From Burkholderiales bacterium (GTDB lineage: Bacteria; Pseudomonadota; Gammaproteobacteria; Burkholderiales; Burkholderiaceae_C), in assembly GCA_021732385.1 (NCBI GenBank), contig JAKFVA010000022.1, positions 1-64,000 of the forward strand: 64,000 nucleotides of DNA, given 5' to 3'. A program made the position numbers and the translations under genes. The notes under the pieces were generated by a model. That model ran no database searches. It was not told the DNA's origin and worked only from the letters and a program-made list of their open reading frames with translations. Position 1 is the first letter of the stretch. Each line of letters starts with the position of its first letter. Below, piece by piece: positions 5,075 to 18,248 of the stretch.

Positions 5075-5089
5075 TAGACGACCAGTCTA
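5075..5089. promoter_or_regulatory. Probable AcuR operator
   Basis: A perfect inverted repeat, TAGAC-GACCA-GTCTA, lies 11 bp upstream of the acuR GTG. It abuts and overlaps a -10-like TATTAT at 5088-5093, so a bound repressor would block polymerase. Spacing and symmetry are typical of TetR-family operators. Autoregulation of acuR (and acuI by read-through) is inferred. Confidence 0.5.
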
Positions 5090-5100
5090 TTATCTGTCCC

Positions 5101-5808
5101 GTGGCTAAACCTTCTAAACCCCGGCGTTCTTTATCTTCTGCTGGCTTGGATGCGGCGGCCAGCGAAAGTGCTGCCGCTGCCCTGCCTGAAGCCGTGCCAC
5201 GGCCAGTTGCCGCCGTACCCCAGCGCAGCCGCAAGCAGCGCACCCAAGCGCGTGACGCAACCCGCGACACGCTGGTTCGCACCGGCTTGACGCTGGTGCT
5301 CGAGCGCGGCTGGTCGGCCACCAGCGTCGATGCGGTGCTGGCGCAATGCGGTGTGCCCAAAGGCTCGTTCTACCACTATTTCAAGAGCAAAGACGAGTTT
5401 GGTTTTGCCGTGCTAGACAGTTACCAAAGCTACTTTCTCAAGCGGCTCAACCAGTGGTTTGGCGCACCGTCTGACAAGCTCAGACTGTCAGAGCGCTTTG
5501 CCGGTTTTCTGGCCGATTCCGAGGCGGGTGTGCTGCGCTATGAATTCCGCCGCGGCTGCCTGATTGGTGCGCTGGGCCAGGAGGTGGCCAGCCTGCACAA
5601 TGAATTTCGCCTGCGGCTGGAGAAAAGCCTGGCCCAGTGGGACGACGTGCTGGCGCGTTGCCTGGCGCGCAGCGGCATCCAGGGCGACTGCCATTTGCTG
5701 GCGCACGCGTTTTGGGCTGGCTGGGAGGGCGCGGTGTTGCGCGCCATGCTCAGCCACGACGTTACCCCGCTGCGCGTGGCCATCAAACGGTTTTTGGCCT
5801 CGCTGTAA
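5101..5808 (+). CDS. acuR: TetR-family regulator, AcuR-like
   Basis: A 235-residue protein with a GTG start. Residues 1-45 are a low-complexity Ala/Pro/Ser extension; the TetR helix-turn-helix follows at about 72-96 ('SVDAVLAQCGVPKGSFYHYF'). The C-terminal ligand domain carries 'EFRRGCLIGALGQE' and 'AFWAGWEGAVLRA', which closely resemble what I recall of Rhodobacter AcuR, the acrylate-responsive repressor of acuI. The next gene downstream is acuI, which supports the call. There is no Shine-Dalgarno before the GTG, and a -10-like TATTAT ends 7 nt upstream, so the mRNA may be leaderless. A start further inside the extension cannot be excluded. Confidence 0.8.
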   Translation: MAKPSKPRRSLSSAGLDAAASESAAAALPEAVPRPVAAVPQRSRKQRTQARDATRDTLVRTGLTLVLERGWSATSVDAVLAQCGVPKGSFYHYFKSKDEFGFAVLDSYQSYFLKRLNQWFGAPSDKLRLSERFAGFLADSEAGVLRYEFRRGCLIGALGQEVASLHNEFRLRLEKSLAQWDDVLARCLARSGIQGDCHLLAHAFWAGWEGAVLRAMLSHDVTPLRVAIKRFLASL

Positions 5809-14155: not shown

Positions 14156-15907
14156 TCAGCTGTGCATATCCTTTTGGGTATCCGTGTGTGGCGTCAAATT
14201 GATTTCTTGCAATCGTTTTGACGGCAGCGTCGCCGCCACTTCCGGTAAATTGACCATGAACGGCGCGCCCGGCGCGGTGCAACCGGTGTCGCAGCACTTG
14301 CCGGGCTGGCGGTTTTGGGTGATTGCGCGCTTCGGGTCGTGCGGGGCGGCGGCAGGGGTGCCGTCTGCCGCCACGCCACGTTCGAGCAAGCGCTCGACCA
14401 ACTCCACCTTGCTGCCAATGGGGTAGTTGCGGTAAATCTCCTGCTTCATGGCCGCCGGGCTGCCACCGCCGTGCAGACTGATGACGCTGTACCAGCCGCC
14501 CTGGTAACCCGCCGTCAAATCTTCAATGAAGCGGGCGGTCTCGATGCGCTGCTCGTAAGGCACGTCGGGGTTGGCGCGCAGTACTTCAGACAACTTGGCA
14601 GCGGTCTCGGGGTTGTGGTCTTCGTCGGGGCCGGGCAGGGTGACGATCAGGCCGCCACTCACATAGTGCGCAATGCGGTGCATGTCGTAGATTTTGGTGG
14701 CGAGCAGCAGTTTGCCGATGTTGGAAAACACCGGGTCGGGCATGAAGGTTTTACTCCATGGGTCCGGCTTGCCGTAGACGCTGGCTGCGACGCCGCAGGC
14801 GTAAAAACTCTCGGTGATGGTGATGAGCTCGACCATCTGGTCGCGCAGGTGGCTCTCTTTGCCAGGGTCGAAGCCATTGGCCTCGCACATCAAAGCGCCT
14901 GCGCCAATCAAGAGGTCGCCAAAACCCGCGCGCGCCGCGATGCAGGTGTGGCGGTGGTGGGTGGCGTAGCTGTAGGTGAGGTGGCCCGAGTGTTCCCAGG
15001 TGCCCTGGCTGCCGTCGTAGAACACCTTGTCCCAGGGAACAAATACGCGGTCAAACAAGCACACGCCGGTGCTCTGGCCGTATTTGCGGCTGAACAGCGC
15101 GTCGCCATGCTCGAGCTTTTCACCGGGGCGGCCGGCCGGGCGCGCCACAATGGTTAGGCCCGGTGCGTCAATGGGTACGGCGCAGCAGACCGCAAAATCC
15201 TGGTCATCCGGCCCCATGTTGCGGCACGGCATGACCAGCAGCTCGTGCATGTACGGCGCGCCAGTGACGATGGCTTTGGTGCCGCTGATGACGATGCCGC
15301 GCTGACCGTTGACGAGTGCATTTCGCTCCACCACATGCACATAGCTGTTTGCATTGGCCTGCTCGTGCGGGCGGCGGCTGCGGTCGCCCTTGGCGTCGGT
15401 CATGGCAATGCCCAGCGTCAAATCCTGGTCTTGCACCTGGTGCAGATAACTCAGAAAACGTCCGGTGTGTTCGCCAGTGCCAAAGGCCTTGCCCTGCGCG
15501 TCGTCAATGCGGGCGGTGACTTGTCCAATGGCGTTCATGGCGTCGTGCACCAGGTAGCGCTGGGCGCAGCCGGTTTCCTGGCAGACCAGGCGCACGGCTT
15601 CCAGTTTGTTCAACAAATCCGCCGCGCTGGTGTTGATGTGGGACAGGCGGTTCACCACTTTGCCGCTGGTGTGCTGCACCGCGTTCATCAGCGGCTGGTA
15701 GCGCGCTTGCAAAGCAAAGTCGTAGGTCAGGGCAATGGCGTTGATGCCGGGGCCAAAGGCGCGTTCGTCGGCCACGCTGGCCACTTTGCGGCCATCGACA
15801 AAGATGTTGGGCTGGTAGCGGCGCAGGGAGTCACGGTAGTCAGCGCCGCTCATCAGGCCGCTGGTGGGTAAATGGTGTTGAATCGGCAAAATTTCAGGTG
15901 CGTTCAT
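14156..15907 (-). CDS. 4-hydroxyphenylacetate 3-hydroxylase (HpaB)-family flavoprotein
   Basis: A 583-residue protein with the HpaB/AbfD acyl-CoA-dehydrogenase-like fold ('DYRDSLRRYQPNIFVDGRKV', 'GIVISGTKAIVTGAPYMHELLVMPC', 'HHRHTCIAARAGFGDLLIGA'). The relatives split into FADH2-dependent aromatic monooxygenases and the Fe-S 4-hydroxybutyryl-CoA dehydratases. As I recall the dehydratase cluster ligands, one of the Cys pair is present (Cys114) but its partner is Tyr118, and the Cys after the conserved His is Ala. An Fe-S dehydratase is therefore unlikely. A cysteine knot near the C-terminus (Cys538, Cys539, Cys543) is unexplained. No HpaC flavin reductase is adjacent. Start chosen at Met 15907; the frame upstream is not family-like. 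Confidence 0.75.
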   Translation of the reverse strand: MNAPEILPIQHHLPTSGLMSGADYRDSLRRYQPNIFVDGRKVASVADERAFGPGINAIALTYDFALQARYQPLMNAVQHTSGKVVNRLSHINTSAADLLNKLEAVRLVCQETGCAQRYLVHDAMNAIGQVTARIDDAQGKAFGTGEHTGRFLSYLHQVQDQDLTLGIAMTDAKGDRSRRPHEQANANSYVHVVERNALVNGQRGIVISGTKAIVTGAPYMHELLVMPCRNMGPDDQDFAVCCAVPIDAPGLTIVARPAGRPGEKLEHGDALFSRKYGQSTGVCLFDRVFVPWDKVFYDGSQGTWEHSGHLTYSYATHHRHTCIAARAGFGDLLIGAGALMCEANGFDPGKESHLRDQMVELITITESFYACGVAASVYGKPDPWSKTFMPDPVFSNIGKLLLATKIYDMHRIAHYVSGGLIVTLPGPDEDHNPETAAKLSEVLRANPDVPYEQRIETARFIEDLTAGYQGGWYSVISLHGGGSPAAMKQEIYRNYPIGSKVELVERLLERGVAADGTPAAAPHDPKRAITQNRQPGKCCDTGCTAPGAPFMVNLPEVAATLPSKRLQEINLTPHTDTQKDMHS

Positions 15908-15942
15908 GGTTGTGGTTGTTCTGTGCCAAATAGGTTGCTGTA

Positions 15943-15963
15943 AATTTGAACACCGTTCAAATT
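15943..15963. promoter_or_regulatory. Perfect 21-bp operator-like palindrome in a divergent promoter region
   Basis: AATTTGAAC-ACC-GTTCAAATT has 9-bp arms without a mismatch. It lies 35 bp upstream of the hydroxylase start codon on the minus strand and about 116 bp upstream of the isochorismatase-like gene. Symmetry and length fit a TetR- or MarR-type dimer site. No regulator gene is adjacent. Confidence 0.6.
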
Positions 15964-16079
15964 GAGGGTCAAGCCGATAAATCCAGCTTGCATTAGCCGC
16001 GAACAACGCGTTTCGAGCGCGTATAGTTTGCGTGTGTCTGCGCACTGTATGCAGCTGATTTTTTTGAAAGCCACCGCCC

Positions 16080-16700
16080 ATGCTGCTAGACGTCAACGAT
16101 TCCCACCTATTGCTGGTGGACTACCAGATTCGCCTCATGCCCGCGCTGTTTGATGGTGCCGGTGCGCTGGCTAATGGCGTGCGCCTGGGCCAAATGGCCA
16201 AGCTGCTGCAGGTGCCCATTACGGGTACCGAGCAAAACCCCGCCGGGCTGGGCGAGAGCGCGCCCGAGATTCGCGCCCTGTGCGATACCACGCTGGCCAA
16301 AATGCATTTCAGTGCCTGCGCCGATGGCCTGGTGCAACTGCTGCGCCCACCGGTCAGCCAAACGGCGCGACCCCAGAGTGGCAATGTCCGCAGTCTGCCC
16401 AAGCATCTGCAAAAACCGCCTGTTGCAGCGCCTGGAAGTGGCCGCAACACCATCGTCATGGGTGGCTGCGAAACCCATGTGTGCTTTATGCAAACCGCGC
16501 TGGATTTGCTGGACGAGGAGTTTGAGGTCTGGGTGGTCACTGATGCCTGTGCCTCGCGCACCGAGCGCAACCGCGACGCCGCCTTTGACCGCCTGGCCTC
16601 TGCCGGGGCTGAACTGCTCACCACCGAAATGGTGGCGTTTGAATGGCTGCGCACGGCCCAGCACCCGCAATTCAAGGCGGTGCTGGGGTTGGTGAAGTAA
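16080..16700 (+). CDS. Isochorismatase-like cysteine hydrolase
   Basis: A 206-residue protein with the expected catalytic triad of the family. Asp14 lies in 'LLLVDYQIRLMP', Lys74 in 'TTLAKMHFSAC', and the nucleophile is probably Cys135 in 'GGCETHVCFMQTALDLL'. A stretch at about residues 90-121, rich in Pro, Ser and basic residues, is longer than in typical relatives. The family hydrolyses C-O or C-N bonds in isochorismate, nicotinamide, N-carbamoyl compounds and ureas, so the substrate is unknown. It is divergent from the HpaB-like hydroxylase. The transporter gene starts 30 bp downstream and may be in the same transcript. Confidence 0.85.
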   Translation: MLLDVNDSHLLLVDYQIRLMPALFDGAGALANGVRLGQMAKLLQVPITGTEQNPAGLGESAPEIRALCDTTLAKMHFSACADGLVQLLRPPVSQTARPQSGNVRSLPKHLQKPPVAAPGSGRNTIVMGGCETHVCFMQTALDLLDEEFEVWVVTDACASRTERNRDAAFDRLASAGAELLTTEMVAFEWLRTAQHPQFKAVLGLVK

Positions 16701-16730: not shown

Positions 16731-18248
16731 ATGCTGATTTTGCGTATTGTGGTGGCTTTGCTGGCACTCTGGCTGGCCAGTGGCAATGTGCATTCGCAAA
16801 CCCAGGCGCAGGACACGCTGCACATCGGTGGCAAGCGCTTTACTGAGGCATATATTTTGGCCGAGGTGCTGGCCCAAACCGCGCGCGCCAGCGGCACGCC
16901 GGTTGAAGTCAAGGCCGGGCTTGGTAACACCGCCATCGTCTATGAGGCGTTGCGCTCGGGCAGCATTGATGTGTACCCCGAGTACAGCGGCACCATTGCC
17001 ACCGAAATTGTGAAAGATCCCGGCGCTGGCACCCTGGCCGCGCTGCGCGAGAAATTGCAGCCCTTGGGCTTGGGTGTAGACATCCGCCTGGGTTTCAACA
17101 ATGGCTATGCGCTGGCGATGCGCGACGACGTGGCGGCGCGGCTAGGTATCAGCAAGTTGTCTGATTTAGCGCGCCACCCGTTGTTACGCATGGGCTTGTC
17201 CAACGAATTCATTGGCCGCGCTGACGGCTGGCCCGGCCTGGCGCAGCGCTACCAGATGCCCCAGCGTCCGCAGGGGCTTGACCACGGCCTGGCCTACGAC
17301 GCGCTGGCGGCGGGGCAGGTCGATGCCATCGACATCTACACCACCGATGCCAAGATTGCCCAACTGAAATTGCGCGTGCTGCAAGACGACGCCCAGCACT
17401 TTCCGCGTTACGACGCGGTACTGCTCTACCGGCTGGACGTGCCCGTGCGCTTTCCCAAGGCCTGGGCGGCTTTGCAGGCGCTGCAAGGCCGAATCACCGA
17501 ACCGGCCATGATTGCCATGAACGCCCGCGCCGAGCTGGAACGTGCGCCGTTTGAAGTGATTGCGCGCGATTACCTGGCTGGCAATTCGGCGAACGCAGCG
17601 TCCGCAACCAAGAGTTTCTGGCCCAAGCTCTTCGGCCCCGATTTGCTACGCCTGACTTGGCAGCATCTGAGCCTGGTGCTGGCATCAGTGGCCTTGGCGG
17701 TACTGCTGGGGGTGCCGCTGGCGTTAGCAGTTGCCAGGCAACCGCGCCTGCGTGCGCTAGTGCTGGGTGCCACGGGTGTGCTGCAAACCGTGCCGTCCCT
17801 TGCATTGCTCGCGGTGCTGATCTCGTTCATGGGCCGCATTGGCGCAGGCCCGGCGCTGGTGGCGCTGACGCTGTATGCCCTGCTACCCATCATGCGCAAT
17901 ACCTGCACCGGCCTGGCCGAGGTGCCGCGCGGTTTGGTGCTGGCGGCCCAGGCGCTGGGCTTTAACCGTTGGCAGTGCCTGTGGCTGATTGAGCTGCCGC
18001 TGGCGCGGCCAGTGTTGCTGGCCGGCGTGCGCACTGCCACCACCATTGCGGTAGGTACTGCCACCATTGCCGCATTCATAGGCGCCGGTGGCTATGGCGA
18101 GCGCATTGTCACCGGCCTGGCACTGAACGACAGGGATCTACTGCTGGCTGGAGCCTTGCCTGCGGCAGCGCTGGCGTTGGTTTTTGAAGGGCTTTTTGGG
18201 CTGCTCGGCTGGTTTTGGTTAAAACCTAAAACCATTGCACTGAAATAA
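16731..18248 (+). CDS. ABC transporter fusion: OpuC-type binding protein plus permease (quaternary amine/osmoprotectant family)
   Basis: A 505-residue protein. Residues 1-24 are a signal peptide. Residues 28-285 are an OpuAC/OpuBC-type binding domain ('LHIGGKRFTEAYILAEVLAQ', 'VYPEYSGTIATEI', 'VDAIDIYTTDAKI'). From about 305 onward come six membrane helices with the permease coupling loop ('LAEVPRGLVLAAQALGFNRWQCLWLIELPLARP'). Binding-domain/permease fusions of this order are known among glycine betaine/choline/carnitine importers and in the ergothioneine importer EgtU, although here the binding domain comes first. No ATP-binding subunit is adjacent, so the ATPase must be encoded elsewhere. 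The ligand is unknown. Confidence 0.85.
   Translation: MLILRIVVALLALWLASGNVHSQTQAQDTLHIGGKRFTEAYILAEVLAQTARASGTPVEVKAGLGNTAIVYEALRSGSIDVYPEYSGTIATEIVKDPGAGTLAALREKLQPLGLGVDIRLGFNNGYALAMRDDVAARLGISKLSDLARHPLLRMGLSNEFIGRADGWPGLAQRYQMPQRPQGLDHGLAYDALAAGQVDAIDIYTTDAKIAQLKLRVLQDDAQHFPRYDAVLLYRLDVPVRFPKAWAALQALQGRITEPAMIAMNARAELERAPFEVIARDYLAGNSANAASATKSFWPKLFGPDLLRLTWQHLSLVLASVALAVLLGVPLALAVARQPRLRALVLGATGVLQTVPSLALLAVLISFMGRIGAGPALVALTLYALLPIMRNTCTGLAEVPRGLVLAAQALGFNRWQCLWLIELPLARPVLLAGVRTATTIAVGTATIAAFIGAGGYGERIVTGLALNDRDLLLAGALPAAALALVFEGLFGLLGWFWLKPKTIALK

Follow-up and report, generated by a model that had tools for sequence, protein, structure and literature searches.

What is a perfect inverted repeat doing between two divergent enzyme genes in a genome in which its regulator is not to be found? 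The question is raised by a locus of a Burkholderiales bacterium (assembly GCA_021732385.1; 2.61 Mb, 61 contigs, 96.85% complete), and it was followed in the window, which is the whole 64-kb stretch analysed (positions 1-64,000 of contig JAKFVA010000022.1). The initial annotation had described a perfect 21-bp dyad between the two genes, and this description was borne out: the sequence AATTTGAACACCGTTCAAATT is present at 15943-15963 as AATTTGAAC-ACC-GTTCAAATT with 0 mismatches, and its 9-base arms are fully complementary around a 3-base centre. It sits between a minus-strand gene of the HpaB superfamily (ATG 15907) and a plus-strand isochorismatase-domain gene (ATG 16080). The elements of the locus are as follows.

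14156-15907, minus strand: HpaB_N/HpaB-domain flavoprotein-like gene according to its domain matches, the putative first target
15943-15963, no strand: 21-bp dyad, very probable TetR-family operator, of the type TTRAAC-R-N-Y-GTTYAA conserved in 43/43 tetR-bearing relatives
15946-15960, no strand: operator core TTGAAC-N3-GTTCAA, a 15-bp palindrome
16080-16700, plus strand: isochorismatase-fold cysteine hydrolase gene, which directly adjoins the operator here and lies downstream of tetR in relatives

In the window the dyad is the sole match at up to 3 mismatches, and the shuffled expectation of 0.01 per window argues against a chance palindrome. It had been proposed that the same site would be found near TetR or MarR genes elsewhere in the genome, however no other exact site is there, and elsewhere in the 2.61 Mb TTTGAACNNNGTTCAAA has no second copy at up to 1 mismatch. 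When 2 mismatches are allowed in the 15-bp core, 59 places are matched in the genome versus 62 for the reversed control, so the weaker copies are background.

The nature of the site was evidenced by comparison of orthologous loci. In one species-genome scan 80 loci with an HpaB-like ortholog were kept out of 245 found, and a divergent TetR-family gene is located upstream of the HpaB-like gene in 43 of them; TetR_N exceeds the Pfam cut-off in all three regulator proteins checked. In each of the 43 tetR loci a TTGAAC-N3-GTTCAA-like site, with no more than 2 of its 12 letters changed, is located upstream of where the HpaB-like match starts. As background, 2542 windows of 340 bp from other parts of these loci were scanned, and 10 of them held such a site. 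Among the 37 loci devoid of tetR the site is absent within 300 bp in 36, and the 37th (L050) was set aside as contig-limited, its contig starting 190 bp upstream and being cut possibly before its tetR. The initial annotation had named absence of the site from orthologous regions as refutation; such absence was indeed recorded in 36 of 80 loci, yet as a check it is misleading, because the regulator gene is also missing in those 36. In 21 tetR-less relatives the isochorismatase match is less than 300 bp from the start of the HpaB-like match, a layout like that of the window, and the site is present in 0/21. A maximum-likelihood tree was built from the HpaB-like proteins of the 80 loci together with that of the window. 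On its starred branches the tetR label switches 7 times or more, and site and tetR change in the same direction in 7/7 independent tree pairs (sign test p 0.0156; window and L050 left out).

The dyad could also be read as an RNA hairpin or a chance palindrome and not a protein site, and its 9-base arms with a 3-base centre could fold on either strand. Nevertheless, it is the core letters and not the pairing that are kept across the 43 loci, where AAC and GTT are invariant while 5 to 8 of 9 positions are symmetric, and the presence of the site tracks the regulator gene. Such a reading is hardly credible, and on comparative grounds the dyad is very probably a real TetR-family operator.

A second sample of 399 family genomes, some possibly shared with the first, gave the same picture. 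The regulator is matched at E <=1e-30 in 40 genomes, the HpaB-like protein at E <=1e-100 in 69 and both in 36, where they are side by side on one contig in 36/36 (coordinates compared by eye). Of this sample 31 tetR loci were inspected, and 31/31 have the site no further than 350 bp ahead of the tetR match, with the HpaB-like gene in view in 29 of the 31. One of these loci (L104, genome G018) retains tetR, the site and the isochorismatase gene in a genome with no HpaB-like match, so the site belongs with the regulator and not with the enzyme gene. The exact sequence TTGAACRNYGTTCAA was found in 33 of the 399 genomes versus 4 for the reversed control, in 22 of those 33 by tetR (match lists compared by eye); for exact sites in other settings no TetR-like frame was noticed in 8 loci checked. 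Among 33 genomes with an HpaB-like match but no tetR match at the threshold, only G000 has an exact site at the HpaB-like gene, and in G392 the exact site and that gene are on different contigs. In four loci (L103, L148, L150, L154) two operator copies 18 bp apart are located between tetR and the HpaB-like gene, which suggests binding of two dimers; genome G017 is one of several in this sample with sites paired at that distance.

The dedicated repressor proposed by the initial annotation thus has its counterpart in the relatives, where the site goes with a divergent tetR in 43/43 and then 31/31 loci, however for the genome under study no ortholog of the regulator was found. Both the HpaB-like and the isochorismatase-like genes flank the site in 41 of the 43 tetR loci, with the isochorismatase match starting up to 170 bp after the tetR match in 35 of these 41, whereas the OpuC-type binding protein-permease fusion, which follows the isochorismatase-fold gene at 16731-18248 in the window, is matched in 0/80 loci, though in 58 of them over 2 kb of sequence is available past the isochorismatase gene. 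The transporter was rejected as a member of the conserved unit, and these results correct the view that the window holds a single catabolic unit of aromatic enzymes plus transporter.

In the relatives the repressor gene and the HpaB-like gene point away from each other, and the isochorismatase-like gene usually comes after the former. TTG is also kept at -12, each base being present in 38 to 41 of the 43 loci, and a TYAAAW stretch runs into the operator; in most loci these two elements plausibly form a -35/-10 pair spaced by 17 bases. The corresponding elements in the window are proposed from the relatives; a consensus promoter scan detected no sigma-70-type promoter at the locus.

15967-15972, minus strand: candidate -35 TTGACC of the HpaB-like gene, its TTG kept in most relatives
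15944-15949, minus strand: candidate -10 TCAAAT, inside the operator, spacer 17, proposed from relatives

We infer from this layout that TetR, bound to the 15-bp palindrome as a dimer, would mask the promoter of the HpaB-like gene, with the candidate -35 beside the palindrome and the candidate -10 inside, and probably also the promoter of tetR itself, and that a small molecule would then release TetR from the operator. No Shine-Dalgarno-like motif is seen at 15908-15925 near the start of the HpaB-like gene of the window, and such a motif is present in 61 of the 73 relatives whose gene showed an MN start.

The place where the relatives have their regulator can be given for the window as well.

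15973-16079, plus strand: location of tetR in relatives; no credible tetR remnant in the window

A search for a tetR remnant in 15881-16110 returned nothing but short matches, none with an E below 0.04, and blast of the intergenic DNA of the window aligned relatives over the operator only (20/20 bases in L012 and L052). The genome holds 10 TetR_N matches, none of them a tetR ortholog, the best showing 29% identity, and this along a part of its length. Protein and profile searches gave no ortholog, and neither did tblastn when 18 TetR proteins were compared with the loci that hold these ten matches. No relatives were found in viral contigs. Since no ortholog is among the 10 TetR_N matches of a genome that is 96.85% complete, the dyad is filed here as an orphan operator and not as a working regulator-operator pair. 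A probable account, and the likeliest one judging from the sequences compared, joins the TetR-family operator with a recent loss of tetR in this genome: the gene would have been lost, probably recently, through a deletion that brought the isochorismatase gene beside the operator, so that the operator would now be an orphan and would probably have ceased to control the two enzyme genes. The placement of the window on the HpaB-like tree is not firm, and it is the site itself that points to an ancestor with tetR.

Intermediate states in relatives are consistent with such a loss. In L192 (genome G086) 52 residues from the C-terminal part of tetR, with 63% identity, persist between the HpaB-like and isochorismatase genes and the site is gone. 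In L018, a Variovorax locus devoid of tetR, the site is left in degraded form, 4 of 18 positions being mismatched. Both suggest a loss of tetR in place, with the sites fading or vanishing alongside. A further possible trace is position 15976 (-16 relative to the core on the strand of the HpaB-like gene), which is A in 43/43 tetR loci and C in the window; this change would fit loss of an element on the tetR side, where position -16 may belong to the tetR promoter or to an auxiliary half-site.

Several points speak against the loss of tetR. As there is no tetR remnant, the window gives no proof of deletion. Moreover, the window site is symmetric at 9/9 positions and is the most symmetric of 44, and a long-abandoned relic should not show the top symmetry. 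This perfection would suit an operator still used by a tetR ortholog encoded away from its targets, in the unassembled 3% of the genome. The genome being 96.85% complete in 61 contigs, tetR could sit in the missing part, and while the flanking intergenic DNA is unalignable, the operator shares a run of 20 identical bases with those of L012 and L052. However, all 36 family genomes (of 399) with both genes have tetR beside the HpaB-like gene, so an unlinked tetR is without precedent in the sample, and a repressor acting from elsewhere is rather unlikely. The site may also have been taken over by another regulator of this genome, for which the 10 TetR_N matches offer candidates and which the perfect site and the selection on both enzyme genes would suit. 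Against such a take-over, there is no other exact site in the genome, the lone 1-mismatch site near a TetR gene (C7:44600) is estimated to lie inside that gene's own open frame, and the ten TetR proteins match the profile of the orthologous regulator weakly, in the DNA-binding part; it is therefore considered very unlikely. Taken together, an operator that is still selected, held by a different regulator or by a repressor encoded elsewhere in the genome, is an unlikely alternative, and if true it would represent a natural replacement or relocation of a regulator in which the old operator was kept and made more symmetric. Loss of tetR is still preferred as the account of the locus.

Both enzyme genes are under purifying selection as estimated from codon changes, with dN/dS of 0.12-0.14 for the HpaB-like gene and 0.20-0.25 for the isochorismatase-fold gene, and therefore both are probably in use, whether controlled or not. 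A faster decay of the target genes after the loss of tetR was considered as well and is unsupported by these values, sucA of this genome being similarly diverged.

The label of hydroxylase given to the first target is doubtful. With the two NCBIfam HpaB equivalogs the protein reaches 119.7 bits where 480.2 are required and 57.6 where 885.2 are required, and identity as HpaB 4-hydroxyphenylacetate 3-monooxygenase is unsupported by scores so far under both cut-offs. It is nearer to 4-hydroxybutyryl-CoA dehydratase and vinylacetyl-CoA isomerase, its closest solved structures by sequence being 6vjr (vinylacetyl-CoA Delta-isomerase) and 1u8v (a dehydratase/isomerase of GABA metabolism). The [4Fe-4S] ligands of 4-hydroxybutyryl-CoA dehydratase are taken by us to be Cys99, Cys103, His292 and Cys299. 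In the alignment with 1u8v Cys99 and His292 are kept, and the other two ligand positions are occupied by Tyr and Ala, both invariant in 81/81 rows; with two of the four presumed ligands missing, membership in the dehydratase family is unsupported too. Because the HpaB cut-off is missed and two Fe-S ligands are replaced, the protein is placed in an uncharacterised branch, and judged by sequence it is neither a proven hydroxylase nor a proven dehydratase. Other Cys and His residues are invariant instead, namely a C-x4-C motif and HHR-x2-C (81/81), as is a C-terminal CC-x3-C (18/18), and it is possible that such residues form a different metal site. The predicted structure of the protein has a mean pLDDT of 34.5.

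It can be said that the kind of element is ordinary and that the orphan state with a perfect sequence is its unusual part. According to PMC3511530, the TetR-family genes likeliest to regulate a divergent neighbour are those less than 200 bp away from it. The relatives resemble the tetR/tetA-type systems treated there in that a regulator and an enzyme gene diverge from a short intergenic region with a 15-bp palindromic operator; the difference is that the regulator gene is missing from this genome and that the operator is known here by its sequence. RutR, FadP, LiuQ and PsrA, the TetR-family regulons of Proteobacteria whose Betaproteobacteria members were inferred from conserved sites (PMC5343134), share the regulator superfamily, however the TetR of the relatives scores 40 of 368 bits for RutR, far under its equivalog cut-off, and TTGAAC does not occur in the main text of that paper. 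A literature search, with subscription literature mostly outside its scope, gave no account of this TetR regulator or site, and novelty is unproven.

With these results a regulator class and an operator are named for an enzyme pair widespread in Burkholderiales, and therefore reporter-based hunting for the ligand becomes possible. The natural states met in the relatives and the window (site and tetR intact, site without tetR, degraded site, tetR stump without site) form a set from which the order of steps in dismantling such a switch can be read.

Another dyad of the window, TAGAC-N5-GTCTA at 5075-5089, lies just upstream of a TetR_N gene (TetR match 5278-5400), after which comes a gene that is presumably YhdH/AcuI-like. 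From its position this dyad is a candidate for a second, separate repressor-operator.
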